From: Baylisascaris procyonis
Taxonomy: Eukaryota; Nematoda; Chromadorea; Rhabditida; Ascarididae
Direction: 5' to 3'
DNA length: 64,000 nucleotides
Assembly: GCA_037389465.1 (NCBI GenBank)
Contig: JAZARR010000250.1
Span: forward strand, 310,001-374,000
Shown: piece by piece, positions 7,628-60,761 of the stretch
How the letters are laid out: every line of letters begins with the position of its first letter
Numbering within the stretch: position 1 is the first letter of the stretch
Program-made: the position numbers and the translations under genes
Notes under the pieces: generated by a model
Told to the model about the DNA's origin: nothing
The model's database searches: none
The model's input: only the letters and a program-made list of their open reading frames with translations

Positions 7628-8171
7628 CATTTCCTCCTTTCTGAAAGTGTACAATCAATTTTTCGACGTTTCAAAAATTAATTTCCGAAACTTTGAAATG
7701 AGTCGGAAAATTCGAAACGGATTGATCTGAATGAGCATTGATCATGCCCCATAGGGAGTGCAACACCTTAAAGGAATGGTAAAGGTGGGACCACGGCTTT
7801 TCAAAACATCGTTTTTGCATTCTCCTAATCGGAAACCCCATTAATAAAATTTAGAGGTTATTGAAATACTTTTAAGGGGAAGTGAAAAGGCGAAATTGAT
7901 TTGAAAGAATCCTATAATAACACTTGGAATAACCTGTCTCTACGCTCATCTCTTCAAGAGGTTTCATCCTTGTGGGTTTATCATGAGGCTAACTTGGTTG
8001 GAGATCCTGAATGGAAACTATTATTCTTCTTTTTGGTGTGAAACGGAAAATTATTGGTGGAGGGAATTTTAAAGGGAGAAGAGTAGTAGGATTTATTTTT
8101 TTAAAATTCTGTCATCTAATTGATGATAATTTATGGAAAAATGTTGTTTTTCGTTTTGTATATAACGTCAG

Positions 8172-8297
<126 letters not shown>

Positions 8298-8502
8298 CTA
8301 AGGTTATATACAAAATGATTTTGCCATTTTCGCTTTTATAAGCATTGTTTCATAGCCGATCCATTGATGATTGTTTCCTTTATGCACTATTTTCTACTCT
8401 TTTCACTTATCGTTCATCCGATAATCCCAGCATACAAAGTGCACCACGATTTGCTCATAAAATAGTCTTTTAACTTTATTCCACAAAGGATGTGTTCCAT
8501 TT

Positions 8503-8505
8503 CAG
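8503..8505 (+). promoter_or_regulatory. Likely spliced-leader acceptor of gene A
   Basis: CAG at the end of TTCCATTTCAG, 14 bases before the ATG at 8520. No upstream coding exon joins it convincingly, which is the usual picture for nematode trans-splicing (inference). A cis-spliced upstream exon cannot be excluded, because the frame is open from the acceptor. Confidence 0.5.
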
Positions 8506-8519
8506 GCTATTTTCTGGGT

Positions 8520-11500
8520 ATGGCGTGCCAATCACAAATCACCACTTTGGGCTTGGTCACAAATGTTTCAGGCACAAGGGCCACAGTTTGGATTTTCCCA
8601 ACAAATTACGATAGGGAACCTGAGGTTGGTTTTATACTTACTCAGAAAGTCGTACTGCATTCTTATGTTGTTCCTTGAATTTGTTGTATATTAATAAAAT
8701 GGGTGTTTTTCTTCTACAGCAATTTTAGCCTTTTTGCCATACGATTTTTGAATAATCCTGAAGCGACGTTGCATAGAAATCGGACTAGTAGTTCGACTCT
8801 GAAGCAACAAGCATAGGAGTGCGCGAAAAACTGCATTCACCTTTAAAATAAATTTTATTGGCAAGGCTGTTCTTATGTGAGGATGGAAGGAAATCAAGAA
8901 AAGCATCGCTTCCGTTTATCTAAAGCTGTAAATGCCTTTCTAGCTTCTAGATGATGAAATAGGGCAGAAATTCAAATTGGATCGTTCGAAAGTTGAAATC
9001 TTATAGCTCATTCCTTAATTTCACATATTTTCTTGTCAACGATCAGTGGTTGTGTTATATTGGTTAAGTGAGTAGAGTGTTGCTTTCACTTTGTAAGTTT
9101 TTCAAGAAATGACATCAAATGGCTAACATTTATATAAAATTCAGTAGAAATTTATTCTCAGAAGGAGAATAGGTTGCGTAAATGATATACAAAATAGTAA
9201 ATTATACTATAGGAGAAACGAAATTGAAAGAATCGGAACTGTTGCAAAGATTGGAATTATTTTCAGATCGAAATCGATTTCAAACAAAGAAGATTGCCTC
9301 TTGCTCTTGGGGATTGGATCCATTTAAAAAAGGATGAATATGGTCGATTGAGATACAAAATAATGGAAGAAAATGATTGCCCCTTACAAACATCAATCGA
9401 CGCTAGAAATATTGTCAATGTTCGTTCATTTTATTTATTTTTAGATCCTTATTCAGCATTTATGCAAATTGCACGTATAAACGCACCAGAATTTTTTAAG
9501 AATTTTCTGTTTATTTCTTTTGTATGGATTTGTCCATCAATGGAATATAGAAATTTTATAGAGGAGTTCTGTGGGAACAACCAACTAATTGCTTGAGGCA
9601 GAATAAAGTGCAGGAATATGGAATGGGATTTTATCGTCGTTTTTGGTGGTCTTTTTAAATTTTTGATTTAACAAAAGACCTCATTTCACAAATCGTTAAC
9701 CTCAGAGGGATATTTGTAAGTATTATCTATTTTCTGGTGGTAAGAACAAGTAAATAAAAGTAAATAAATAATATAAATTGCAACAATAATTTACGCAATG
9801 TTAGGGAGATTGCATTGCAGAAAAATATTCGCAAATTGACGAATTTTTGAGATATTCCATAAAGCGTCATATTGCAATTTAATTTCGTATAAATGGTCCT
9901 GCTTTACATAGTTTTTACAAAAGTTACTCACCGAGTGTTATTTCTTTTCTGTTAATTAGTAAATAATGAAAAAGTTTTGAAGTAATAAAAATAAACAAAC
10001 AGCATGAATTGTAATGACAATTAATGGTTCTTATTGAGTAAATACCTCAAAACTATTCGTTTGCAATTTTCTCTTTCAAGCTTTTTGCAACGAGGTGCGA
10101 TTATTGTTTGATTTTTATTCAAAACGACTTGGTTACCTGGAAAGGTTGATGAAAAATTATCAACTTTTGAAAAGGAAACCGTTTTTTTTAGGTGAAAAGC
10201 AAATTCGTTTTCCTAAAAAATGGAAATAAAGAACACTCCACAACGGACGATGATGGTATGTGCGCATGGTCACCTGACTTCGGGCTTATTAATGCGTGCT
10301 CCAGCTATCACTTATCAGATGCTTATATTTACGAGGGTTACCTCGAAAGGTTGCTTTATCTTTATTGCTTCTCTTCATTTCTCACTAGATTGCTTTACCT
10401 TCGTTTGTTTAATGAATGATCAAGAGGTAATGGTTGGTAACACATAGTCCTTTCTACTTATTGGCAGCTCTAACCAGTGCCATTGTCGTTCGGTTATGTC
10501 AGCCACAAGGATGTCACAGAGCTTGAAAAAGCAGTGAGTATAATTAGATAAATATGCACAAATAGGTCAGTGCTTACAGAATATATGAGGAGTTTAGTAT
10601 AGTATAATGTTATCGGTCTTCTTAAGGAAGTGAAGAGGTAAGAACAATTAACGAATCTTTCTAAAATCTCGCTCTTCAAAAAAGAAATTAGCGGCATGCA
10701 TTTTGCCATGCCCTCTACCTCCATTCCTCAAATCCGTTTGAAAATGAGAAGGCGAGGACTTAGCCCTATATGATTTCAGACTCGGCTGGAATGCTGATTT
10801 TAGGGGTAATTTCCTTTGGTAATTATATGTTCTTCTGCTTTTCTTTATAGATCGCGAGCATAAGTTCAACTTTTCAGGAAGAAAAAACGAAACTCTTTTA
10901 AGATTGCCAAATAGCTCAGTGATATTACTTTATTATCGCCTCACACAAGGAACCTTATGTAACTTTCGTGCTGAATGGTTTTATGTTTCCGCAAATTCAT
11001 TTCTCTGAATGATTTAATCGAAGATCCGCGAATATTTTTTTGAAGTAGAGGATGATGTTAGGGAAGAAGGAAGGGGGTGGATGCACGGCGATAAGGGAAA
11101 TAAGATTGGCAGAGTTATTGAAAACCTTTTTTATGCTCTTAAGAGGGAAAGAGGACGATGCATTATTTATTTTATGGATGAATAATTTTTTTCTAGAATT
11201 CCCGGTGAGCCATCAACAAAAACTACGTCATATTGGTCGATTATTCGAAAAAGTCCTATCGAACGGGTTGATCGTTTCGCATTCGATACTGTTCTGTCAT
11301 CACCTGAGGTTTTATTTATGGCACATACTCCATTATTGATTTGATTTCATTTGTTTGTTAAATTTAGAAATGCACAATTTGCGCAAATGAGATGCCAGTA
11401 GAATGTGCTTTTTTAAAAATTAATTTTTAGAAGCTCATTTAAAATCGGAAATTAATTTACGCAACTGTTAATGACATTAAATTGGCGTAATAGTTCAGAG

Positions 11501-12714
11501 GGTGATATCTTATCATCACCATTAATATATTCTCGTGATTTATGAACATAGGTAAACATTTTATCATATTTATTGCTAATGTTTGGTGTTGTTGTTTGAT
11601 CGATTGATGGAGTGAATTTTCAGCATCGTTTAGTGATGAACAGAGGTATGATAGTGGACGAATGCAATGATGGTTGGATTGTATGGTCGAGAGTATCAGG
11701 CAGAACAATTCTACCGAAGGAGAATTGCACCGATGTTGGCATCTCACAGTGGATTAGTTTCTTATTGAAGTAAGTTGGCTGAGCATTGTTTCCACTTTAA
11801 GCGATAAGAATAGAATTTTGGTTTTTTTTTTTTGTCGTGATTTAGCACTACATATATCGTCTACTTCATCGATGCAAGGATACCGATTTCGAAAATTTTA
11901 TGAAAATTTCTTCGAGTTGCAGATTACTTCACTAATGAAATTTTGACAGTGTGAACACTAATACATAACACTGCAATTATGTGTAATAAGACATTTTTCT
12001 GGAATTTTGTGATATGAACGAGGGGGAGGGAGTAGTGGATTATCAATGAAGAGGGGTTTTTTTGGGGCAGGAGGTTTAATATTCGTACCCCATTCAGGTG
12101 CATGTATTTCAAAGCAAATAAGAACAGTGACTAATTTGTCGAGCTACCTATGGCATGTCGAGATTATGTAAAAGCTTAGTTGTCCCATTTGATTCAACAA
12201 AACACAAAAATGCATAGGTTTTGTGCTATAGAGAAGTGCATTATAGAGACGGAATTGAATAGTACTCTGTTTGGTTATAATGTTTTAAAAATTTAAGACA
12301 ACTCACAGTGGTTATGCTTTGATAAATCTTGATAATCCGAGAGATAAAATAACGTTTGCTATGCGTTCCTAATTTTTTTTGCTTGATTTCCTATAGTCGA
12401 TTTCAGGCTGCCAAAATGTGGGGAACCAACACCGATAATAAAGAAGTGCATTAAAATAAGGCCACCTTTGACGTCGCGTATCGAAGGTGGCAAACTCAAG
12501 GTGTGTTGAATTTTATGAGTTGATTTAATTGCACAAATTTTTAAGGCACTTCGTACTGCACTAAAGAATGCTTCATTAAGACTGCATCGACGAAAGCTAT
12601 AGCAAAGACTATCTACAGCTAAAAGAGAACATCGGTGCATGTTTTTAGCATATTTATTCCTTCATTTCCACAGGCTACTGAAGGGCGTTCGCAGAATTCA
12701 CTCAAAATGCCATC

Positions 12715-12766
<52 letters not shown>

Positions 12767-13817
12767 CCAGAAGGGTGCAGATAATTTCCCCGTCTGACAT
12801 TTATTTAAAGCTTTCTAATTTATGCCTCAGTAATTGAGTTTTTTGGAGATGCAGCAACTAAATTAACTAACAATTCGAGCATCTGATATGTGGCATGTAC
12901 GACACTATTTTCAGTTAACATATGTTGTTTTTAGGTAAGAATAAGTGATGAGAATTCAACATCAGGAGGCATATTTCCTCAGCTGCGATCGTCTTTTCTT
13001 GGTTACATAAAAGGGTGCAGTGAGATGTGGGCAGTATGGGATTGTAAAGGGTGGTGCCTCGATGTGCCCACATCCACGATATCAGCTTCATTACCTCAGG
13101 TAATTTTGAAAATCATCGCAGCTATTCACAAAATTTGCGCTTTCGAATATATGCTCAATGAAGACTGATTTTGGACAAAAAGGCGAGTGATGATGGTACT
13201 CCCATGAACAATTCATCCCAGAGACATGGAATCGAAAGTAGGCAAAGCAGACTCTTTGAGAGGTTAATAACTCCACGAACGATGTTCATCGAAGACGATC
13301 TAGACTGATATGTGAAGTGAAGGTATTGAGACGGAACCGCCAAAAAACGAGCCTCATTGTCACTTAGTAACAAACGCCATACTGTTCAACTTGTTGGATT
13401 ACCGTGGTTAGGTGAAAGGAAAAGAATATATGAGCGGGCATGTGTAAAAACAGTAAGGCATATTGAAGTATTGTTTGTTGGGCCACGTAGAATGTGGTTT
13501 ATTCGCTGTGACATTGACTCTAGTTGTTCCAATATTCATCCTTATATTAACCCAATGACTAAATATTTAATTTTTCAATTGGTACAGTCTACCAGAACAC
13601 TAATTTATATCTCATCGTTATTAAAATATTTTGTGGAGTGCCATTTTCTTGATTGCGATGGTGTAATTTGTTGTTATTATAGGCGAACGAGAACGTCAAG
13701 CAAGGATTTGTCGCCAAACTCGATAAACAACTCATATTTCTTGCAATTGATGCAGCATTCGATGCGATCCTCAAAGAGACCGAGTTGGTTTTTCCTTTCA
13801 TTGATGCTTTTCCATAA
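8520..13817 (+). CDS. Gene A: unknown protein with repeated beta-rich modules
   Basis: I do not recognise this protein. Phase-consistent exons: 8520-8624, 9267-9419, 10192-10255, 10478-10533, 10627-10637, 11197-11308, 11624-11769, 12407-12500, 12935-13099, 13183-13237, 13331-13452 and 13683-13817. They encode 405 residues. Exon 2 could instead run to a GTATGG donor near 9520, and the 13331 exon to a GTACAG donor at 13582, which adds 43 residues; 10627-10637 and 13183-13237 are the least certain. The chain repeats a short pattern: a glycine, a hydrophobic strand, six to ten polar residues, then a strand with V-W or W-x-V. Examples are LGLVTNVSGTRATVWIF (about residues 11-27), RGMIVDECNDGWIVWSR (about 174-190), LGYIKGCSEMWAVWDCKG (about 268-285) and QGFVAKLDKQLIFLAID. 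GDWIHL follows the first copy. The strand pattern recalls OB or S1-like barrels, but that is inference. No signal peptide or membrane span is seen. Gene B, just downstream, carries the same kind of module. Confidence 0.72.
10627..10637 (+). other. Candidate 11-nt microexon of gene A
   Basis: GAAGTGAAGAG lies between TCTTCTTAAG and the strong donor GTAAGA. It supplies exactly the phase shift (0 to 2) needed to link the exon ending at 10533 to the exon starting at 11197, adding E-V-K and a split Arg codon. Without it the flanking exons are out of frame. Confidence 0.45.
12719..12762. repeat. (TA)n microsatellite
   Basis: About 44 bp of TA repeat inside the gene A intron between 12500 and 12935. 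Confidence 0.95.
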
Positions 13818-13905
13818 AATAAGCAAAACGAATAGCCATTATAACTTCAATTTTATTTGCATCTTTTTCTTTAGTATAGATTATGATCGAGTGGTGGGAT
13901 ATATT

Positions 13906-13908
13906 TAG
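13906..13908 (+). promoter_or_regulatory. Likely trans-splice acceptor of gene B
   Basis: TAG at the end of GGGATATATTTAG, six bases before the ATG at 13915. It lies about 90 bases after the stop codon of gene A, close to typical intercistronic spacing in nematode operons. A second candidate, TTTTTCTTTAG ending at 13874, lies further upstream. Confidence 0.45.
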
Positions 13909-13914
13909 CAATTA

Positions 13915-16900
13915 ATGCTTGTAATCGGTAAGTAGTTGAAATTGAGAAGGTATTTTTAGTGGCTTAATTGCTCTCTCTGTGAGTCTATAGTGAAGTATTT
14001 CAATTAATAGTGGATGTTGGAAAGCGTTGTTATCCTATACACGATGAGCACTTCCTTTTCCTCGTTCTTTGTTTATTCTGCTGTAAAAAAGTGGAATTTC
14101 TTTTTGTAGGTTTTAGTGTAATAAGTGAAAGAATTTTGCCAAATGATCCTCTTTTGAACTTATCGGAGAAAGTTCTGTCAGTAAGCATTGACAAAAAACA
14201 CTAAAACACTTCAACGTCGGTGGTCATCGAGTTTCGTTCATTACCAGTGAGGCTGAAAAGGTTCGATAGCCACCGAATTTCATTCGGTGACCATCAAAGA
14301 GTGTAACTGTTAATGTTCATTTCATTTTTGTGTGTGATTTTTCATTGAAGCGTCTTAAAGTAAGATCTCGGAAAATATCCCTTTCTCTGAGGATTTCTGC
14401 TTTCATTATAATTGCCATTTTGCAATTTAATTTTAACCAGGAATTATTTCAAAGCATTTCCATCGTTATGGGTTTATCCTTTAAACACAAGATTTTTGAA
14501 TTATACGAAAATTTGAAAAATCCTTAAAACACAATTCTGCGAAGAAATTCAGAATGAAAATAGGAAACTAGAAATTAAAATCAATAAAGTATATTTCAGA
14601 AAAAAATAAAGTATTTGTGGGGAAACTAAAACTCATAGAGCGTTGCATTAAATTCTTTCTTTTAAGGTGGACTTTTAGGCTTACCATTATTTTGCTTTTT
14701 ATCTCTGCAAAGAGGATTGTGGAATTGCCATAATGTATGTGAACAAAGAAGTGTATATCCTACTTGACGATATACATGGAAGAGCGGTTCCCATGGGAAG
14801 AATGAGAAAAAAATGAAAAAAATCCAAGTCTTGTTCATTTGTTCTCATCTATGAAAGAAGCAAATTTTTCCAAGTTTTATTCATACAACATCAAGCAGAG
14901 AAATGTATTATTTTTGACTACGATAGGTGACACTTATAAGCCATGGTCATTTAAGATATTCAAATGGATCGGCAATTCAACAAGGTGATTGGATCACTGC
15001 CGATATAACCACTGACGAGTCATGCCATGTGCGTATTGCGAACAATCCTCAAAAATTAGTCGAAACACCATTTCCCTCCCGTCTAAATGACAGCGGAGAT
15101 GTTGAGGTATGTTGTTTTGCTTTATTTTCAACTTATTGCTGGATAAAAGTGAGTGCTCGTGTTTGAGAGAACATCATAAGCTTTATTGTAAGCTTCCCTC
15201 TCTCTCTTGGTTACATTTTATTAAACATTTCATTCTTACATCTTCCAATAAGTTGAAAAATCTTTAAATTTCAAGTTTTGCAATCGGTTTATAGCATGCA
15301 ATTTCATATTTCTACATTCTGTGACGTAAGGATATAAACGATTTTGAGCAATTCGATATTACTTTGAGAATCTTTTTTAGAAACATTTTGCCCAACTCAT
15401 ATCTTTGCCAGCATTATTATTTTATATGTACAATAGTTGTATCAACAACTACGAAACGATTCACTATATGCTAAACGACCGAATCGATTTTTGAGAGAAA
15501 ATTTCGACAGTGACTTTCAAGCAAATGTTTTTAGGTTCAAACCATTATAAACAACTTTCGATTCATGAATCACGAACGTTTTGGGGAATCGGCGGATTTG
15601 GGATTGATAGCTGATATCTATGATGTTATCAATGGACATTCCACCGATAAACTTTTGGTTTGGTGTCATCGTTTAATGAAACCTCTTGAAAACGGATGCG
15701 TTTGGGCTCTAGTCAAAGGAGCGAAAATTCACAAGGTAAAAATAACTTCATTTAATTCTTTTTTTCTGCTTTTGTGATACGAGTTACATTGTTAGGATAG
15801 TAAATTCACTAAACGTTTGCAATTTTCTAATGTCGATATTGGTCGTATTTATGGTTCTTTGTAATGTGTTTCTTAGACTTTAATAGAATATTTCATAGGT
15901 TATTATCATATAATAACGTATTTTATTTATGAGTCGATTTTTTTAGTTGCACTTTTTTATTTAATTTCGTTTATGAGATTATAACGATCTAGTCAATTAA
16001 ATCGTTAATTTTTATTAAATCTCTTTTTAATTGTGTTTTAATTGTAGCATTTTTTTCAACGTCAAAACATGGACTGTTAAAATGTGGTTGGGTTAGTGCG
16101 AAATATGTGATGTTTTGAATGCGGATCGATTATAGCTACTGATAATCTCTAAATCGAAATGGTTGCGTGCATATCGCTAAACACTAAAAAACCGGGTCAT
16201 GCTGGTGATATTGTTCGGAAGAACTTTTAAGGTGGATGAAAAATTCGATGAAATGGGCGGTAAGCTTAGTGATGTATCGCAACGAAGACGCAGTGATCAT
16301 GCTTCAAGGAGCATCGATGAATTAAACATGACGATGCAGTCGGCTGCAAAGGTTCGCTTCATTTGATTATTCGAACTTGTTAGAATCGTTGTTTAGGTAT
16401 TGTTGTCATACGCTCTATTACTTCTTTTTTTAATCTTAATTCCCTTGGTCGTGGCTAGTGTGGCTATTTGAGCGAAAAGCTCACAGAGCGTTCATGTATT
16501 CCTAATTTTCTGTCTTGCTGCGTTTCGCATTTTTGCAAGCGATGGATGGTCCCCCATTAAGCGAATGATAGAGTGAACTCAAACTTGGGCGTATTGTTTG
16601 ATATGGCAGTTTTGTTTCGAGCACTGATTATGATTTCTTTCGTTTACGACCACTCGTATGGCCTTACAATTTTCCTCTCTTCGTTTAATTTTTTCGTTTA
16701 CAATTTTAATCGACATTTTGTCACAACTTTTGTGTGGCAGTGTAAAAGAATGCAGATGGATTATAAAATGATGCATGTTCCCTATATTTTACACATTATC
16801 TTTGCTAAATTAAGGAAAACTATGAGGGGCATGGTATTTCTCATTCACAGTTTAAAGAACACTGTCGTCATTTTCCTCTTTATGTGGAATAGAGATTTGT

Positions 16901-17448
16901 TTTTCATTGCCTCTTTGGTACCGCTTAGTTTTAGGGATACTTCCTAGGAGTGGTAGGAAAATTTTTCGATGGATTTTCCAGCATTTGGGATGAGCAAATA
17001 TTTCCTCTCGCACGCAGTGCGACATATACTATGAATAGTGAATAAAATATAAACAAGTATTTTGCGACACGATAAATATCCAGAATGAATATTTGAAAGA
17101 AGATTGAAAGTCGTCATGGGTCATCGAACAGCCGAAATTATGAATCAAAAATCTCATTTTTCCCTCCTCTATCTCTCTACTCCTTGTGCCTTATTCAAAC
17201 CACTTGTTCTTTCTTCCTCATACTAAATGCCCATTTGTGAAATCTTTAAACGTTCCAAAGGATCTCCCTGATGTGATGAGAGCGCATGCAAGGAAAACTG
17301 TGTTTTCCAGAGAATGGAAACGACAACAGTTGCCGAATTGCTGGATTGTATGCGCAGTGTGATTTCATGCCATGAAATCCGTCGAATAATAAAACGGGTC
17401 AACCCCCAGCTTCACAATGAAATTATCAACATGTTGATGAACTTATGA
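13915..17448 (+). CDS. Gene B: unknown protein related to gene A
   Basis: I do not recognise this protein. Phase-consistent exons: 13915-13927, 14011-14180, 14715-14786, 14927-15106, 15535-15735, 16232-16351 and 17311-17448. They encode 297 residues. The first coding exon is tiny (M-L-V-I plus one base, donor GTAAGT) and opens into DVGKRCYPIHDEHF. Residues about 62-85 (DCGIAIMYVNKEVYILLDD) match the layout of the first module of gene A. The next exon then carries QQGDWITADI, parallel to ALGDWIHL in A, with the intron in the same phase between them. A further module follows (ADLGLIADIYDV, DKLLVWCH, NGCVWALVKGAKIHK). The C-terminus is polar (SQRRRSDHASRS) and then helical, with IRRIIKRVNPQLHNEIINML before the stop. 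Exon 14715 has a weak acceptor (GCAAAGAG) and a weak donor (GTTCCC). Exon 16232 uses an AAG acceptor. The start is chosen because it alone gives the needed phase and sits behind an acceptor. Confidence 0.68.
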
Positions 17449-18590
17449 GCGAAGTTTTTACGAAATTTTTTCCACTTTTCTTGGGCATTTCTCATTATTG
17501 TTCACTTTACATCTGCTGTTTCTAGCTTATTAAATTGAATGTTTTGTTTATGGAATTGCAATCTGCGGTATAAAGGTCTTTTCCTTTCTATATCTCTGTT
17601 ACCTCTTACAACCGGTTTTGTCCAGTTCCTTTATCTCTTACTACTCTCTTGTATTTCCTCATACGGATCTGTTGGCATTTACGACCGCTACACTACCATC
17701 ATTGGTAGTTGCACCTATGATTCTGCATTCACATTTGAATTATTATATTCCTGAGAATCGATCTCTTGAGATGGCGCTTATCGGGTTGTGTTATATATAA
17801 ACTAACCAGACAGCTCCACAGCAGTCCACGATTGCTCTGAATAGATTCCTTGAATGGGGGTATGTACGAGGCGTGATCTGGCGGTCATGGGGCTATCGCC
17901 GGATGGGGGTGCGCAAGTTGATTTTCCACTGTATTTTATATCCATAATTAGCTTGCTTATTGACATGGCCAGTCTGGTCTTCATCTCAGTTATTATACTT
18001 ACTGTTCTTGTCCTTCAAAATGCTGCATTTCAGAATGCATCCAACCACTAGAAACGTAGTGTTCTTGGTTTTTGGTGGCTAATACCAAAACGTTCCACCA
18101 GTAAATGGAGTCCTACACGGATCTCCGATCATGAAGACGGATCTCCGTCTTCATGATACGTTGTCACAGCGCGCATAACACCATCAGTACACAACAGTTG
18201 TCGCATTTTAAGAATATTTCATCATAGTGCGATGTGTTTCTTTTATTTTACGAGAGGTTCCCGGCCTCCTTTTATGAGATTCTGTAGAAAAGGGAATTTA
18301 GTATCCTTCTCAAGATTGCCTTGCGGCACTTTCGATAACTGTTTGGCCATACTCGAGTAGAATGGAGTAGTTCGCGTTAGTTCTTTGTAAAAGTGGAGGG
18401 AAGAACTCTTGCATTCATTTTTTATGAATGAAGAAAATTTTGGGGGAAATGAATATTTATAAAAAGGTATAATTCCAGCAAATTATTATTACAAATTATT
18501 ATTATTACATATCCAGTGATGTGAATTCCATTACTGGAATCAGTTTATCATCGTCCCACCTTGGAGGTAACATGTTTAGAGGGGGTTAAT
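17449..18590 (+). other. Region downstream of gene B with orphan open frames
   Basis: Two frames here look somewhat protein-like but cannot be tied to a gene. One, 17618-17800, contains FPHTDLLAFTTATLPSLVV. The other, 17854-18051, reads MGVCTRRDLAVMGLSPDGG and then a hydrophobic span, ending in QNAAFQNASNH. GC content rises in 17850-18200 and a perfect hairpin lies at 18128-18157. Together with the retrotransposon tail that follows, mobile-element debris is a reasonable reading, but it is not shown. Confidence 0.35.
18128..18157. repeat. Perfect 14-bp inverted repeat
   Basis: ATCATGAAGACGGA, then TC, then the exact reverse complement. The half-motif ACGGATCTCC also occurs just upstream near 18117, so the arm has a partial direct repeat as well. 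Confidence 0.9.
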
Positions 18591-28000: not shown

Positions 28001-31000
28001 ACAAGGCAATGGACTACCGCAACACACAGGTGATGATTTTTGATTTAACTGGTTAAGCTGATATTAGGCGTCCAGGTGGCAAAAATTTAGTGAAACGGCA
28101 TTGTTTCTCAAATTTATATTCCGCAATTCATCAAAGAAGGCTTTCCTTCTTATGTGAACTGTATTATTATGTTCCTTCCAAAATTGATCACACTAACTGA
28201 AATAGAAAGTTTTTTAGCGCATATAGTTATTCATTTAGTGAGATTATACATTGCAGATGTTTTTCTAAAACAAATGATTTAGAATTTTCGTTAACTGCAA
28301 GGGTAATGTAAAATTTACTGTAACTGGTCTAAATGGCCTGAGTAATTAAAAGGCCCAAAGGTATAGAAGTAACTGAAATACATCTTTATTCGTTTTTTTT
28401 TTTTTTTTTTTTGCTTTGCGTAATGATGCTTAGAGTTATCAGAACTTTCTACCTTCTTATGAAATATTTCTTCGCCCATATGCTAGTGATATTTTCAGCT
28501 CGTCGTAATCCGCCGACCCCAAACAGAGGAACGAGTCTGATTGGACAAAATTTGACTCCCATCCGACTTATCACTCCATATGTGAATAAGTTAGTGTTTT
28601 TTAAATTGCATTTCTTCTTCTGTTTAATTTAGCTTGCATGTGAATTCAGTTATACTAAGCATTTCACATTCATTGGTACTCGTTCATCGGTGCAAATTTT
28701 TATGGGACATGGCAAGGGCAGCAATGAAACGAAGGGCTTGTAAGACCTGAAATTGTTTGTTTACTTTTTCATATGTAACTTTATGTTGCGATTGTCACAA
28801 AAATACTGTTTTTTCGTTCATTTACTTGGTTACTTTAATGTTTCATCGCTGGTTATGGTTTTTATCTTCAGTGAGAAGATGGTACAAGATGCGCTGAGAA
28901 AGGAGTAACAATAGAAGGGAAGAGCAGAGAAGATGACGCTTGTAATGCCCTCAGTGCCTTACCTGACTTTTATGTTTTTAAGAATCGCTGTAGCTAGTAA
29001 TAATCTAAGCCAACTATATAATTGACATTGTCGAAAACTGTAAGATGATGTTATTAAGATGGCGTATATGTGGCGTCGTGACTGCAAAAGAAGATTTGAG
29101 AGATGTGAAGACAGCACGTGGAGAGTTAAAGGTATTCAATTTCGAACTAACCGATGAGGAGGGCGGATGCATTCGGATTGCAGCTTTCGGAGATACGGCA
29201 GACAAGTTCTACGCAATCGTGCAGAAAGGATCGGTACGTTCTTTTTTTTATGATCCTTCAGTGATTTCTGGATTCGGTTTAATAATTTTCTGGAATGACG
29301 CCTTTTATTAACACATTTTCATGCTGTAATCTATCTTGTAAAGAGGAAGCAAAAGATAAAATTTTCGTTGCCTTAGTGGTTGTTTTTTTGTGTATGTGAA
29401 TTTGGTGTATTTTGGTTAAAAGGCGTTAATTTTATCATTTACTGTCTGCTTTTACAGTTAATTAGGTTTTTCCTAATGTATGTGCTTATATACTTTCGTG
29501 TGGAATTCTTTTAATTTTATAAAGCGTTTTAAGATGTACTATATATCGGGCGGAACAGTGAAACAAGCAAATAAGCGTTACAATACGACGGGACACGACT
29601 ATGAACTCACTATGCGATCCGATACAGAGGTAAATCTTTGATTTAAATATCTCTTGGAATCACGTCGTCGATTTTATCTATAAAAGATGTTTTTTTCTTT
29701 TATGCAGTGCATTGTTGAAATCCGAAATTTGTAGATAAAAGTGACAGATGTTCAGAGTTTTTCCTTAATTTCCCTTACAGTTTGTAAATTCTGCTCTATT
29801 TTATTTCGTTAATGAATGAATAAATGGCAAGGCAATCAACAGGTTTGAGAGGAGCTTGAGTAAAAACGAAACAGTGGAACTGATACAAATAAACCTGCGT
29901 AGAAGGATTCAGAAGCGAACAGTTGAAGGTTACACCTCATGATATGCTACTGTTATTGCTTACGACGGTTGTTTTCTTTTTTTTTTGGTGGGGGGGGGGA
30001 GGGAGAGGGGGCTGTTTTTCTTGTACTCGTTCTATTCTTCTTTCATCTGCAAAACAATTTTCTTTGCCCTTGAACGACTTCGGAAATCTTAAAGTTATTT
30101 AAGTATATACTTTTGATCGGTGGATTTGTCATTGAAGTGACGTCATTTCAGATATCTCCATGTATAGATCGAGAGAGGATTGAAGAACCACGATTGAATT
30201 TAAACGTAGTTCCACTCGCGATGGTATCGTCACGTGCCGGACAGTGCATCGATATTATAGCGATCATCGACCAAGTTTCCGAGTTGCAGCAGGTACGATT
30301 TTTCATTCGGATGTCTGAAGTGATCTTCAAGATTAGTGATTGAAATTTTCGGACGTGATCATTGAAAGAATGGATGCTTATATGTGACTGATAAGAATAG
30401 GTGAGTATCGATCACATTTGGGGATACTTGCAAGTTGCAATCCGATCTTGAATTAGTTTGAAGCCACGCAGAGAAACTTTAACAAATAGATGACATGTGA
30501 AAAAAGACTCGGTGGCGAGTTTATAAATTTCAGGCTACTTGATTGTTATGCATCTGTGACTGGGATTGCACAAACTTCGGGTATTGAAAAGGAAGAGATA
30601 TTTGTGGCCTGAAGTGGCATTGCAATTAGGTAGTTTTGAGACGGAACATCATTTTTTCCATTTATTCGGTTGGTTCACAGAAATATTTATTCGAAAATTT
30701 GTCCATTTTTTAAATAGTATACTAAAATATGTATTTTGTTTTAGGAAAATGTTGAAGATTTGCATTTATTATTGAGAAACAAAGATTAGGGTGGTTAGGT
30801 GAGTTATTTCGTTGCGAGATTGGGAGATGGCAAAATTCGGTAGTGCCAGCCATCGTCCTTCATGCTCACACGTTCCCCTGACATTTATAGTTGGCTATAG
30901 ATCAATATCGTAGTTAACGTTAGTAGTATTATATGGGACTCATCTCTGACGCAGTGACATTCTCTTCGTTAAGGTAACACAACGAAGCACAGGCGCGCTA

Positions 31001-34000
31001 TTGGAGAAGAGGGATTTGCATTTAATCGACGAAAGTGGTGCTGTCGTTGTGTTGACTTTATGGGGCGAACAGGCACGTAGCCATGACGTTGATCTGCAGC
31101 ATCAGGCTATCGGTGTCAAGGGGGCAAGTGTACGCGAGTTCAACGGTTTGCTTTTCTTTTATTTGATAACGTTCTTTTATTTATTATCTTATCTCTACAG
31201 CCTCATAATTGTTAGGTTTAGAGGAAATTACGTTGTAAGTTTAGGATATATTGGAAACTTAGTGAGAGATGGTCATGCTGTCTTTGTAAAAATTGTCAGG
31301 GATTCCTGGCATGGATAGCATCTTTCAGGGTAATTAGGTAATCACAGATTTATTGTTATTGTCTACCCACTCCAGCACTTATGTTTCTCCCCTCACTTCA
31401 GGGCTGATATTAGGCTGTTGCGTTAGTTTTCGATTGTCGGCACAAATGCGTTTACTCTCATGTTTCCTTTCGCCAATTTTCAAAGGACAAATTGTTTTCA
31501 AGCATAATTCTCCAGTGCTCCAGTGTGAATAAGCTTTGGTCGTTGAACGAGCCAGTGCTAATATGATGGGTGATGGATGAAGGTTTCTTCGTATTTACTA
31601 TATTGTCTTGCAGGCAGTTACAGTTTATCAGCATTGAATTCAACTCGAATAGAGATCAATCCGGATTGCGACGAATCGAAGGCGCTTTATGTATGGTACC
31701 GTGAGAAGAGACCGAGCATCGATGTGAAGCGAATCACAACAAGCAGCATGGGAGGCGATAGTTATGGTACAGATATACTTTTTTGTGTAAAACTATGGTA
31801 TATAAGTGTAAGTAAGAAAATATTTGCTAAGTTGAAGTTCTGTGCAAGCGTTTATTTAAATAGCACTTCCTCGTTAGATAGCGTTATGCAGTTTTTGCTG
31901 AATTTGTCGCTGTACTTTTAGAGGTGATAATATGTCGTATTTTGGGTATGGTAGTTTATTATGAGTGCAGGCGTCTTGAAGATTAGAGTACCTTTGCTTT
32001 GAGTGACGTTTACTGCATGGTTTACTAAATGGTTCATCAATGAGAATAAGTCAACTCAACGAAAGGGAGGCTTTACGTCTGAAATAGATGCGCTGTTATG
32101 TTTAGGGCGGCCTTTCACCCTCCCATTATGTAAATTTAGGTTGGGGCTACAACACAAGTTGGAGAAAAATGGTTTCGTGATTAATGAACTTTCAGCTCGT
32201 GATCTGCGTTTGATTGGTGTAGCCGATGCGATGAATCTCGGTAGAAACGAAGATAAGGGTGCATATTTCAATGTCACTGCAATGATCTCATCTCTGAAGG
32301 CCGATGGTGCACTCTACAAGGTTTGTTGTTCTTCTTTATTCAGCTGAATAATTCCATTTGAATGCCATTATGAGGCTATTTTGATTGTTATTGAATATTT
32401 ATTATTATTATTTTTTATTTGACATCTTTAGAAATGCATCATGTTATTCGATGCGGTTAATTTTGGTTCCTAAAACATGCAATGATAGCAGTCGTTTTTC
32501 GATTGCATTTATCGATCATTGACGATACGCAAGGAAATAGCGTATTTCAAGAGTGGAGAATAAGGATGGGCAGTCAAAAAATCACCTGAAGGTTATTATT
32601 TGTGAAGTTTTAGGAAGAGCGGAGTACATTGTAAGTCAAAATTGGAGATGAGACATAACGATATGCGATATGTGAAAATTATTGTATATCCAAGACTGAG
32701 GTTGGGCCAGTGACCTTCAGCTAATGACGATGAGCTCGAATCTTACATGCGGATACAGTTAACCCTTCAGCGCATATGACTGCTATATTAAAATTTAAAG
32801 CAAAATGCAGTCAATTAATCCCTCTTGTCTATTGCAGACATCAGTCATAGAGATAAAGGGTGGTTGATTATATTGTGAGGTATTTGCAGAGTTGTGGTAC
32901 TAACGGATGCAAAAAGAAAGTAATTGAGATGGACAATCAGTACCGATGCGAGAAGTGCAATCTCACACTCGACTCATTTAAATATGTCCTTCTTCTATCG
33001 GTAAATAATTGGCTGCTTATTTCTTATATTTTTCCAGCTATTTCTTTATGGAGTTTGGATTGGTTGAGTCATGGTACGTTTCTACTCTAGCTCCAGTTCA
33101 GAAGACGCAAAAATGAATTCCGTTTGTGTTTGTGTGTGTGCACTAGTGGTGTCGGTATGTCGGGTTTCTTATCGTGCTTTGCGTTTACTGTGAGATATGA
33201 GGTCACTTCAGTACCATTTACCATGTACCATAATCTCATGGCAACGGAGTAATTGAAGCCATGTCTTCATCTGTTTCAGCGTGGTGTGATTTCTTGTATC
33301 TTTGAGGCGTAAAGGTGAATAAGCTTATCGCCTTGATTAAATAAGTTCGGTTAAATTCTTATGAAGTATATTTACTGATGTGTATTTTTTGACGTCTTAT
33401 CTCAGCATTAAAATTGAGTGATTGTATTTTTGGATTTTGCCCATTATTAATTTAATGTAAATAGAACTTTGTGTTCATCTAAAACACATATCTGTTTATA
33501 TTAATTGCTGTGAATCTCGCATCTGAATGGATACAAATAAATGCTCAGATAGTGCTTACAGCTGTGATGGAAGTTTTTGCGTAATATCTGTGAGCACTCT
33601 ATTAGGTGTAGAAAATGAGCATCTGATTATAATGAGAATGTTTAAAGGTTCGAAAGATGAGAAATTGACTTATCTTTCAGATGGAATTGTCAGATTTCTC
33701 AGGATCCCATTGGGTGACTGTTTTCGAGGAGAAGGCGATTAAGTTGCTCGGTAAGACGGCAGCGGAATTGGGAGACCTTCTCGAAAGCAACAGGGTTTGT
33801 GTCTTCTTTTTTATTTTAAGTTTGCTGTACATAAAAAGTTCGAAAACTCGTTATTTAGGCAGTAAAAAGCTAGAGGTTTTTTTGTATTTTAGGAAATCTA
33901 GTGTTTTTGTGCGCTTTCTAGATTGGGTAATAAGCGGGATTTATGGAATTTGTCGTTTTATTAATCGAGTGGGGACATGATTGGAATTGAATGTTGTCGA

Positions 34001-56358: not shown

Positions 56359-57961
56359 ATGTCGGATCCGAACTCGACAACTGAATCATTTTCCTCGGCG
56401 ACTGGTGCTGTACTATTGGATTTCTATATCGGCCTTGGCTTGGCGGTCTCATCGTCGCTCTTTATTGGCAGCTCATTTATAATTAAGAAGAAGGCACTAA
56501 TAAAGTTGGCTCAAAGTGTAGACTGCTCACAGCGAGCATCCGAAGGTGGATACGGTTACCTCAAAGAGTGGTTATGGTGGCTTGGTGTTATTACAAGTTA
56601 GTCGCTATCGTTATATCTATTTTGCTTTTTGACTTTTTGGAATCGTTTATTCATATTCAATGCAAAAATGGAATTGAGGTTTAGATGAGTGGTTGAAAAA
56701 TCTGCATTCTATTTTGAAATGAGAAGAGTTTTTGTTTCATTTACAGATATTCATAAATCGTTTGCTCGAATTGTTTAGAGCAAAGCCGTTACAGATAGCA
56801 AACATACCTGAAGCCAGTTGTCTTGTCAAAGTTGTGCTGAAAACAAACATCGCTGGTTTAACAACATTCATTGGTTTTTTTTTTAGGAAATCCAATCATA
56901 GGTCGACAGGAGAATCAAAAAAGTCAATTTTTTGAGCGTTTTATAGGGTCAGTTTCATCGTATACTACTTTTATATTCTTGCACATTCATTTTGCTTTTC
57001 GTGACTTGACCGTAGTATTAGGTGGAGGGAAGGAGAGAGGAGGGAGAGAAAGGAGGAACTGATAACATAAGCGCTTATCATCAAAAAAGTTTTCAGTGGG
57101 TGTTGGTGAGGCATGCAATTTCGCCGCTTATGCGTTCGCTCCGGCTAGCTTGGTCACACCTCTTGGAGCGCTCAGTGTGCTTGTTACGTAAGCATTTTTA
57201 ACGACATCCTATGAGTCTATCATTTGTTCCTTGTTGATGATTGCCGATAGGTAGACTAAAAGGGAAAATAACAAATGATATAATCTTTAAAGCACTAGTC
57301 AGCTAGTTGAAACGGTCGAATAGAGTGTATAAAGACCATGAAAATGGTACTATGCGCAATGTAAGACGTCCTTATTGAAAGATGCTTTTTGTTCTTCGCT
57401 GAAATATCGAGAAAATATTCGTTTAAAATTAAAATCGGCCACCAAATTGTGATACTATGAGTTCAACAACGAAAAAATGTCGAAATCGCGCTCCCCAGTA
57501 CCCACCCTCAAAAAAAATTTTTTTAAAAGATACACGTAATTGCGAGGGTTTTTTTTTCCATATCATGTGGCCAGTTTTTCAGTTTTAGCGGCGCTTATAT
57601 ATAAAGTTAGGGGAAGCCTTTTTAAATATGATCTCTGTAAATTCTGAAGATGCCGAAAAATATCATCGCATTTCGAGAGTTGAGTAGTGATTATTCTTCG
57701 CCGACAATTTCAATTGAAAAAGCTTATGTGGAAATAATTTAAATTTGTAGTTTTGATCTGCGTTATATTTAAGTGCGGTGTTATCATCGAAATTACTCAA
57801 GGAGCGATTAAATTTACTTGGCAAAATCGGTTGTGCGGTATGTTTGCTCGGATCAACCGTTATTGTCATTCATTCACCGAAAGAAGAAGAAGTGGCATCG
57901 ATGGCCGATCTTGCACTCAAAATGCGAGATGCTGGTTTGTTCTTTTTAGAAAGTCTATTGT

Positions 57962-58036
<75 letters not shown>

Positions 58037-60761
58037 TTTTGAAAGGCGAATCCACCTACGTGTTCATCCATGAGTAATTTGTTATTTTATTTACTCTCGA
58101 TATGGAATTTATTTGGTGTAATTTGTAAAATCGGTTAAATTTATGAAATTCATTGCTGGGTTTTTGAATGAATTTTCAGCATTTGGTACACCAGCCTAAA
58201 TCCATTTGCATAATTAAAACGGAGTTTTGAGCCGTGATATTGTTGCACTAAGTTTATGTATTTGTTCGCAAATAATGCTTTGTCGTTTGCAAGGATTTTC
58301 GCATCATATAGATTTTCTATCTAGTTTACCAACTGTTGAGGTAGTGAACACTTCCCAACACAAGATATGCAACATTAAAAAGAAACTGACTAGGATCATA
58401 AGTTGAAAAAAGAACTCTCAACATTATAGGTATATGAAGTATTCATTAAACATCGTTGAATTTCTAGTTTCGTTTATCTTTTTTGATAAAAATTGTAATT
58501 AAATAAATATTTAAAATTTTCGACATTTTAATGTTTTTTCCCATCGATATTTGCATAGACATTGTTATGGAAGGAGTTATCGATTCTCAATTCAGTATTC
58601 TAAAGTTAGAAGTTTTAGCAAAGCGCTATACTAAAAAAAATTACTGAAATTCTAGCGAATACATGTAATTTGATTGATTGTTTCAGTATTTATATTGTAT
58701 GTGATTGCGGTGATAGTGGTAACGTTGGCGTTGGTATTATATGTGGCACCACGCTACGGTCGTTCGAATATCCTTGTCTATATTGCGATTTGCTCGCTAA
58801 TCGGGTCTCTATCGGTACTTTCGGTGAAAGGCCTCGGTCTCGCTATCAAAGAAACCCTCGGTGGTCAACAACAATTCACCAATGTGCTCACGTGGTTTTG
58901 GTTGGCCGCTGTGATCGCATGTGTTTCTGTACAGTTGGTGAGTTCTAACAGCTTAAGGCAATTTCTTAATCATCTAGTGCGGGTGAGAGAATATTCTAGT
59001 CTTTTCGAAGTATCGATCGTGTTCTCGCATTAAAATTTTATGCTTCAGATTAAATAATAACGAAAATCACCAACATGAGGACTGCTGGGGTGGGAGGAGG
59101 GACCGCATATGAAGTTTCCTTTCGTTTCGATGAGAGGTCTGCCTGTTAATATAGTCTTTAGTTTGTTTATTTGAAATGCATAAAGAAGTGCGCTACCGTT
59201 TACGCATTCTGTTTTTTAGCGAATTCATTCGCAATGCTTTTCACGGTCGGATTTGAAGTGATTTCTTTAATAAGCATAACCAATGTTTATTTATGAGTTG
59301 ATTGCTGAGCATTTAGCAAAGATTGTCGTGTAGCTATTCCACCCGTTTGTTTTTGGGTGCTGAATCTAATTTACTATTTTTGTTTCGAAACTATGATCTG
59401 AATTTCCATAGTTAACAATTTCCGAAAAAGGACGTTGGTGATGCTTTTGCCCACAAAGTTTGCGGTAAGTAAGATAAACTCAGCATGGGAAATAATGTGC
59501 AGATTTTCATATATATTTAAGGGGAATATTGCAAACAAGTTTCAGGTTTACTTAAACAAGTCTCTGGATCAGTATAACACGTCAATGGTGACGCCTATCT
59601 ATTATGTGTTTTTCACTTCATTCGTGATTCTCGCCTCGTCGATTCTCTACAAGGAATGGTCATGTCTTGGTGCGAGTGATGTGCTTGGCAATGTGATTGG
59701 ATTCCTTATCACCATCATTGGCATATTCCAGGTCGGTAAAATCCTTCTTCGTTTAGTGCCTTGGCTCTGATAGGGAAAAGTGGGGAGGGGAGGGGAAGGG
59801 TGTAGTGCTGCAATTATTAGAGATTCGTCTTTTACAGGCTGTTATCTCATCTCGTTTCGCACCCCTCTCGCGGTCTTAATTTATTCATTCAGTAATTCCC
59901 CTCCATCTGCTTGACTAAAGTTTTTCCGTTTTGATAAAAATAATTGAGCTGACGGTATCGTCAGAGGGGGAGGAAGGGGTATAAGGTATGAATTGTTGTT
60001 GATTAAAGTTTTCCCGTTTTGATAAAAATAATTGAGCTGACGGTATCGTCAGAGGGGGAGGAGGGGGTATAAAGCATGAATTGTTGTTGATTAAAGTTTT
60101 CCCGTTTTGATAAAAATAATTGAGCTGACGGTATCGTCAGAGGGGGAGGAGGGGGTATAAAGCATGAATTGTTGTTGACTAAAGTTTTCCCGTTTTGATA
60201 AAAATAATTGAGCTGACGGTATCGTCAGAGGGGGAGGAGGGGGTATAAAGCATGAATTGTTGCTGACTAAAGTTTTCCCGTTTGGATTAAAATAATTGAA
60301 GTGACAGTATCGTCGGAAGGGAGGGGGAAGTGTTAAGCATGAAGTGTTGGAGCATTGTCGTTTTTGTATCCTTCCCAGGTTCTACATGTTAAAGAAGATC
60401 TAGCGATAACTGAAGGAAATAGGGAGGAGTACCTGTGGTATAATGCAATGGAGCAGGACATTTTTGCATGCCGGCATGGCAAAAGTCCTTAGAGGAAGGT
60501 ACAGTATAATGGAACAACAATTTTTAATTTCTTTGGGTATGATGCGCTTCATCTTCACATTTACTAGTTCAAGGTTTAGAGCGTAGGAAGTGTTGGTTTC
60601 AGATGCAGCTTTTCCGGGATGTGAACATATCATTGAAGCAGTTACGGGTATTGCTGCACAAGCCTTCGTCAAACATCAATCAGTTCGAGATCATGAACAG
60701 TGCCACCTCGCTGGTCGACGACTTACCGAGGAGGTCACCCTCCCAACCAATCTATACATAA
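56359..60761 (+). CDS. NIPA-type magnesium transporter
   Basis: This is a multi-pass transporter of the NIPA family (DUF803, drug/metabolite transporter superfamily), which moves Mg2+ across plasma or endosomal membranes. Six phase-consistent exons: 56359-56596, 57097-57187, 57774-57934, 58687-58937, 59546-59731 and 60603-60761. They encode 361 residues, close to the roughly 360 I recall for human NIPA2. Hallmarks in order: [20 protein letters not shown], then [16 protein letters not shown]; a Met codon split across the intron into [20 protein letters not shown], followed by [58 protein letters not shown], then [29 protein letters not shown], then FFTSFV; and LYKEW. The cytosolic tail starts [20 protein letters not shown] and ends SPSQPIYT. 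The last intron (59732-60602) carries an 88-bp minisatellite, and intron 3 holds a TTTA repeat 23 bases after its donor. Whether it is a NIPA1, 2, 3 or 4 orthologue needs a tree; it looks closest to NIPA2. Confidence 0.95.
57958..58040. repeat. (TTTA)n microsatellite
   Basis: About 83 bp of TTTA repeat in intron 3 of the NIPA-like gene, starting 23 bases after the donor at 57935. It lengthens two chance open frames that appear to extend the exon. Confidence 0.95.
59917..60350. repeat. Minisatellite, 88-bp unit, about five copies
   Basis: Copies begin (AAAGTTTT...) at 59917, 60005, 60093, 60181 and 60269, an exact 88-bp period; the last copy is degraded. Each unit contains CTGACGGTATCGTCAG, a 6-bp-arm hairpin, followed by a G-rich purine segment (AGAGGGGGAGGAGGGGG). 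It lies entirely in the last intron of the NIPA-like gene. Confidence 0.95.

Follow-up and report, generated by a model that had tools for sequence, protein, structure and literature searches.

In Unr/CSDE1, non-canonical cold-shock domains (CSDs) alternate with CSDs and serve as pseudo-RNA-binding scaffold domains (PMC7383231). RSD-2, a nematode small-RNA factor, is described as a protein that 'contains no particular motifs' (PMC2395250); a survey of 13 species, Ascaris suum among them, did not identify it in the non-Caenorhabditis species (PMC3110158). RSD-2 and SIMR-1-type small-RNA factors are taken here as a literature lead only (PMC7255803, PMC2395250, PMC3110158). The present work concerns a candidate gene at positions 8520–17448 on the forward strand of a 64,000-nucleotide stretch of Baylisascaris procyonis DNA (assembly GCA_037389465.1, contig JAZARR010000250.1, positions 310,001 to 374,000), hereafter the window, in which all positions are given and which has a guanine plus cytosine content of ~36%. 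The libraries searched offer no description of its family or function, and literature searches on RSD-2, tandem OB proteins, Unr and ascarid orphan genes turned up no mention of the protein.

We tentatively put forward, as one possible explanation, that the locus is a single fast-evolving ascarid gene encoding a ~600-residue protein with three diverged two-part units and an OB/cold-shock-like RNA-binding scaffold. One single-copy gene of ~14 exons, with exon A9 joined directly to exon B1 (Table 1), would then encode a two-part unit present three times in tandem, its copies far diverged from one another, and after them a tail. The first part (type 1) would carry the signature G-hyd-hyd ... VW ... 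GDWI ... P[LF]x(1,2)S, where hyd is a hydrophobic residue, and might form an OB/cold-shock-like five-strand barrel; the second (type 2) would carry GLI ... W ... VDxxFD, and the C-terminal tail, helical by guess, would be for protein contacts. Judging from the fold class, the tandem barrels could act as a joint scaffold for single-stranded RNA or ribonucleoprotein partners, in the manner of Unr/CSDE1. If the units are real, they represent an undescribed family whose two-part architecture was triplicated internally and is testable by structure; if not, the locus joins the many orphan genes of parasites that evolve fast. In practice, what is gained is an improved ascarid gene model.

Gene model and relatives

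The locus is a chain of open stretches bordered by AG and GT, which contains every peptide quoted in an earlier reading made from the letters alone (the sequence-only reading), its three examples of a repeated module among them. In the model, nine exons (A1–A9) encode 356 residues and five (B1–B5) encode 248 residues and a stop, giving a full chain of 604 residues. All 14 exons are open and they join in phase everywhere except at A4–A5, where the good acceptor, at 11196/11197, does not fit the phase of A4 and the one that does, at 11209/11210, is weak.

A UniRef protein of 102 residues from Ascaris lumbricoides (P0002), presumably a predicted model rather than a complementary DNA, has the same start methionine and A1/A2 join, is identical at 80 of 86 residues (32/35 in A1 and 48/51 in A2), replaces the aspartate of GDWI with N, and continues beyond the position of the A2 donor. 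An open reading frame (ORF) from another source (P0001) is identical to exon B3 at 52 of 57 residues. Beyond the B3 donor the frame in the window has two stops where P0001 stays open; similar stretches nevertheless reappear further along, and P0001 should therefore come from a close relative. Since P0002 shares the start and first splice, and P0001 matches B3, the sequence comparisons indicate that the gene is very probably real. The UniRef label of P0002, 'Neur_chan_LBD domain-containing protein', is likely wrong, because P0002 returns 0 Pfam families at an expectation value (E) of 10, with no match to the Neur_chan_LBD profile.

The imperfect A4–A5 join and several weak donors are what a decaying gene or pseudogene would leave, yet such decay is very improbable here: every exon is open, the other joins are in phase, and A1/A2 and B3 are free of insertions and deletions in the related sequences whereas the frame beyond B3 is broken. 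Codon scores are no help for the gene question, exceeding zero in only 4 of the 14 exons (training on 383 codons from two neighbouring genes, with B1/B2 at earlier boundaries); A9 is the highest-scoring segment of 90–210 bases within 8000–18500.

Exon-level protein searches returned one protein each, and in a combined A2 and A8 query the A2 half was matched and the A8 half had no match. A whole-chain search found none at E 1 among 6164 candidates of ~338–1074 residues, a range that misses split or longer relatives, with a 614-residue query in which the B1/B2 join, of an earlier model, was in part incorrect and the questionable exon A11 was included. No paralogue beyond the locus was found in the genome (272.8 Mb, 293 contigs) with A1–A2, A6–A9 and B2–B5 as protein queries and DNA of 10000–11000, a search insensitive to diverged copies; the gene looks single-copy. 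The sequence-only reading had proposed an undescribed, perhaps nematode-restricted, system. A very probably real gene with no Pfam match above cut-off agrees with the first term, but restriction to nematodes is not established, the sole named relative being from A. lumbricoides, and 'system' is too strong a word for an apparent single-copy orphan gene.

Possible repeated units in the predicted protein

With modest confidence, we favour on sequence grounds a protein of three diverged ~190-residue units (a, b and c), each of a type 1 and a type 2 part, followed by a tail. A self-alignment of the whole chain, which presupposes no boundaries, scores modestly above shuffles and matches unit a to unit c: it sets B2–B4 against unit a, starting at GDWI or, with PAM250, at the first strand, and keeps the order GDWI, S[PA]D[FL]GLI, W, I..VD, FD. 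Three-way alignment sums over hand-picked units agree strongly for type 2 (0 of 500 shuffles under three matrices) and weakly for type 1 (13, 35 and 5 of 500). For the three whole-unit pairs, the real score is matched in 1, 2 and 1 of 300 shuffles with BLOSUM45 and in 8, 0 and 23 of 300 with BLOSUM62. When the two halves of a single unit are exchanged, the score falls in 11 of 12 comparisons and is equal in the remaining one.

The sequence-only reading had seen at least five or six divergent copies of a single pattern, arising by internal duplication. Written as G-hyd-hyd-x(4,13)-hyd-[WYFL], a pattern occurs six times against 1.56 in shuffles of hand-picked units, and hyd-W or W-x-V nine times against 4.7 (reached by 51 of 2000 shuffles). 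Joint alignments exceed shuffles, but pair by pair the copies are near chance, with p < 0.05 for local alignments in 2 of 36 segment pairs (~2 expected); in a second set of 21 pairs, three fell below this level with either local scheme and four with the global one (~1 expected). Internal duplication has some evidence in the self-alignment and three-way sums, with the repeat redrawn as three two-part units. Type 1 and type 2 also resemble one another in sequence (real score reached by 0, 1 and 1 of 300 shuffles), so that either they share an origin, as the single pattern would have it, or the score reflects strand patterning that both have in common.

Several points besides the near-chance pairwise similarity weigh against three units. 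Patterns and unit boundaries were set after the data had been inspected; shuffling destroys strand patterning, so that any beta-rich protein may beat shuffles; a MAFFT alignment of the three units is poor toward the N-terminal end; and the self-alignment extends to A6–A7 against B4–B5, which adds to its score and is given no weight. It could well be, then, that the gene is real but an ordinary fast-evolving ascarid orphan, whose repeats are a loose hydrophobic-strand likeness that owes nothing to duplication. Pairwise similarity close to chance, a pattern defined post hoc, the lack of a beta fold in the B3 model, and the likeness of type 1 to type 2, as general strand patterning would give, all fit this account; it fits less well with a self-alignment score above 93 to 95.5% of shuffles (9, 14 and 10 of 200 reach it under three matrices), the collinear pairs SPDFGLI/SADLGLI and VDRFAFD/VDEKFD, or a pattern count matched in 6 of 2000 shuffles.

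The introns back the unit reading only partly. Each of the units a, b and c has a phase-0 intron right before V, at a distance of 8–9 residues from the S of P[LF]x(1,2)S (9419/10192, 12500/12935 and 15106/15535), and a second follows FDxxL in a and b and is absent in c; V begins 5 of 14 exons anyway. A formal test of coincidence to within one residue is mixed and depends on the alignment: for a and c there are two coincidences with BLOSUM45 (38 of 5000 random placements), one with PAM250 (665 of 5000) and none with BLOSUM62; for b and c one with BLOSUM45 (585 of 5000) and none with other matrices; a and b are at chance level. The sequence-only reading also pointed to a shared intron phase before GDWI. 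Both A1/A2 and B1/B2 are indeed phase 0, but as 10 of the 12 junctions within the A and B chains are too, this says little.

One gene or two, and the surrounding sequence

The sequence is compatible with the tandem duplication into two genes first proposed but does not establish it. A9 ends and B1 begins in phase 0, so the two can splice directly across an intron of 891 bases, and we lean towards one gene. That there are two adjacent genes, perhaps in an operon, with A9 read through until A ends at a stop close by and with B starting at a spliced-leader (SL) exon at 14679, seems rather unlikely. AATAAA occurs at 14583 and 14605, 96 and 74 bases 5' of B1, and 74–96 bases from AATAAA to the next exon resembles usual nematode operon spacing; this counts against a single gene, but AATAAA is frequent (13 in the 10.5 kb scanned). 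Two genes would also account for the weak A9 donor (GTTTTT), yet donors starting GTT are common (7 of 13 in the model) and that of A1 is used in the A. lumbricoides protein. The module-like A11, which good sites do not allow to be included in phase between A9 and B1, likewise favours two genes. Set against these are the direct in-phase join and the first in-frame ATG of B1, which follows CGIAI, so that a separate gene B starting there would lose most of its first strand.

Two short module-like stretches lie between A9 and B1, at 13891–13927 (GGIYLAINACN) and 14117–14180 (VISERILPNDPLLNLSEK), and neither can be joined in phase by good splice sites. A candidate exon at ~13891–13927 (SSGGIYLAINACN) was dropped, lacking any [CTA]AG..GT segment, as were alternative first-pass B1/B2 boundaries with incompatible phases. 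AT dinucleotide arrays stand just 5' of the gene (8173–8295, 61.5 copies) and in an intron (12718–12766, 25 copies).

Table 1. Features of the modelled gene, with positions in the window
Feature	Position	Strand	Basis
TTTCAG, possible SL1 trans-splice acceptor (putative)	8500..8505	+	read in sequence, 14 bases 5' of ATG
Exon A1, start Met, first half of type-1 module a (GLVTNVSGTRATVWI)	8520..8624	+	start and A1/A2 join matched in P0002
Exon A2 (LALGDWI), GDWI half of type-1 module a	9267..9419	+	matched in P0002; donor from model only
Exon A3, V first after phase-0 intron, contains SPDFGLI	10192..10336	+	model only
Exon A4, short, phase 1 in	10478..10533	+	model only
Exon A5 (YWSIIRKSPIERVDRFAFDTVLSSPE), 5' end uncertain	11210..11308	+	open stretch with splice borders
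Exon A6, type-1 module b (RGMIVDECNDGWIVWSR ... GISQWISFLL)	11624..11769	+	open stretch with splice borders
Exon A7 (RPPLTSRIEGGKLK)	12407..12500	+	open stretch with splice borders
Exon A8, start of type-2 module b (LGYIKGCSEMWAVWDCKG)	12935..13099	+	open stretch with splice borders
Exon A9 (GFVAKLDKQLIFLAIDAAFDAILKETEL), phase 0 out, weak donor GTTTTT	13683..13787	+	splice borders and codon score
Possible extra exon A11 (VISERILPNDPLLNLSEKVLS), may be intron	14117..14180	+	own acceptors out of phase with A9
Exon B1 (KEDCGIAIMYVNKEVYILLDDIHGRA), first half of type-1 module c, phase 0 in	14679..14786	+	model only
Exon B2 (IQQGDWI), GDWI half of type-1 module c, TPFPSRL motif	14927..15106	+	model only
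Exon B3, type-2 module c (SADLGLI ... VWALVKGAKIHK)	15535..15735	+	matched in P0001
Exon B4 (VDEKFDEMGGKL, polar stretch after)	16232..16351	+	model only
Exon B5, C-terminal tail, TGA stop	17311..17448	+	open stretch; ATTAAA at 17529

Exact SL1 occurs 333 and 648 times in the genome (981 in total), whereas the reversed control sequence is absent (0 and 0); this marks the genome as that of a nematode, and its ascarid nature is inferred from P0002 and agrees with the base composition of the window. SL1 arrays are present on contigs C78, C89 and others, with a spacing of ~6,567 bases on C78 and of ~1,113 bases on C89, the latter possibly a 5S/SL1 unit. Elsewhere in the window, on the forward strand, exons of the replication protein A large subunit lie at 29057–33791 (REPA_OB_2, E 1.6e-12; Rep_fac-A_C, E 6.7e-8) and exons of a NIPA-type magnesium transporter at 57757–58934 (E 2e-16 and 1.9e-26), the first stretch of which leads into tandemly repeated DNA whose translation is a run of FIYL; an ORF at 475–921 has likely membrane segments and a weak Erg28 match (E 0.04). 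An Rfam scan of the window gave nothing reaching the gathering score.

Fold and comparison with known proteins

AlphaFold models the first module, at low confidence, as a five-strand OB-like barrel, and this module is possibly OB/S1/cold-shock-like. The possible OB/S1-like domain of the sequence-only reading may thus have a counterpart in one module, but a fold common to all is unsupported: for the second module (B3) the model was helical and unusable, with a predicted template modelling score (pTM) of 0.28. With the separate parts and the 604-residue chain as queries at E up to 10, hmmscan found no Pfam family above cut-off, HMMER filters hiding most matches above 0.1; weak rows in the tail were ZPR1 jelly-roll (0.016–0.081) and DUF496 (0.09–0.12). 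Under the same filter limit neither the S1 nor the CSD profile gave a row, the latter a further point against a cold-shock scaffold, and a PDB sequence search gave only chance-level matches.

That the module is a Tudor/SH3-like or KOW-like barrel in place of OB, and the protein a fast-evolving small-RNA or germ-granule factor of nematodes such as RSD-2 or SIMR-1, is decidedly improbable. The first module aligns weakly with NusG KOW, which suggests it, but the E of 1.7 is at chance level and Pfam gave no match to a Tudor profile; motif-poor nematode factors such as RSD-2 do exist (PMC2395250, PMC3110158). The present protein resembles RSD-2 and other fast-evolving nematode small-RNA factors in being motif-less and hard to trace past close relatives, a comparison by description only.

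Multi-domain S1/OB RNA-binding proteins offer a second comparison. Foldseek rows for the first module include the DHX8 S1 domain (2eqs; E 0.44, from a low-confidence query model), and RNA exosome chains also appear in its match lists. The spacing G-x-V ... V ... GD-W-I here resembles the GxV ... GDxV of S1, but the S1 profile is not matched and GD becomes GN in A. lumbricoides.

Unr/CSDE1 differs in having nine domains, against three units here, and in that the locus has no Pfam CSD match and a fold of low confidence. That the family is restricted to ascarids or nematodes, with a two-domain unit of barrel and partner barrel triplicated in one gene as an independent counterpart of Unr's alternating architecture, is unlikely. 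Both proteins would nonetheless present serial small barrels alternating in two parts, and the structures matched by the first module include entries with Unr cold-shock domains (1x65, 4qqb and 6y6m); by analogy, Unr/CSDE1 may be the closest functional parallel.
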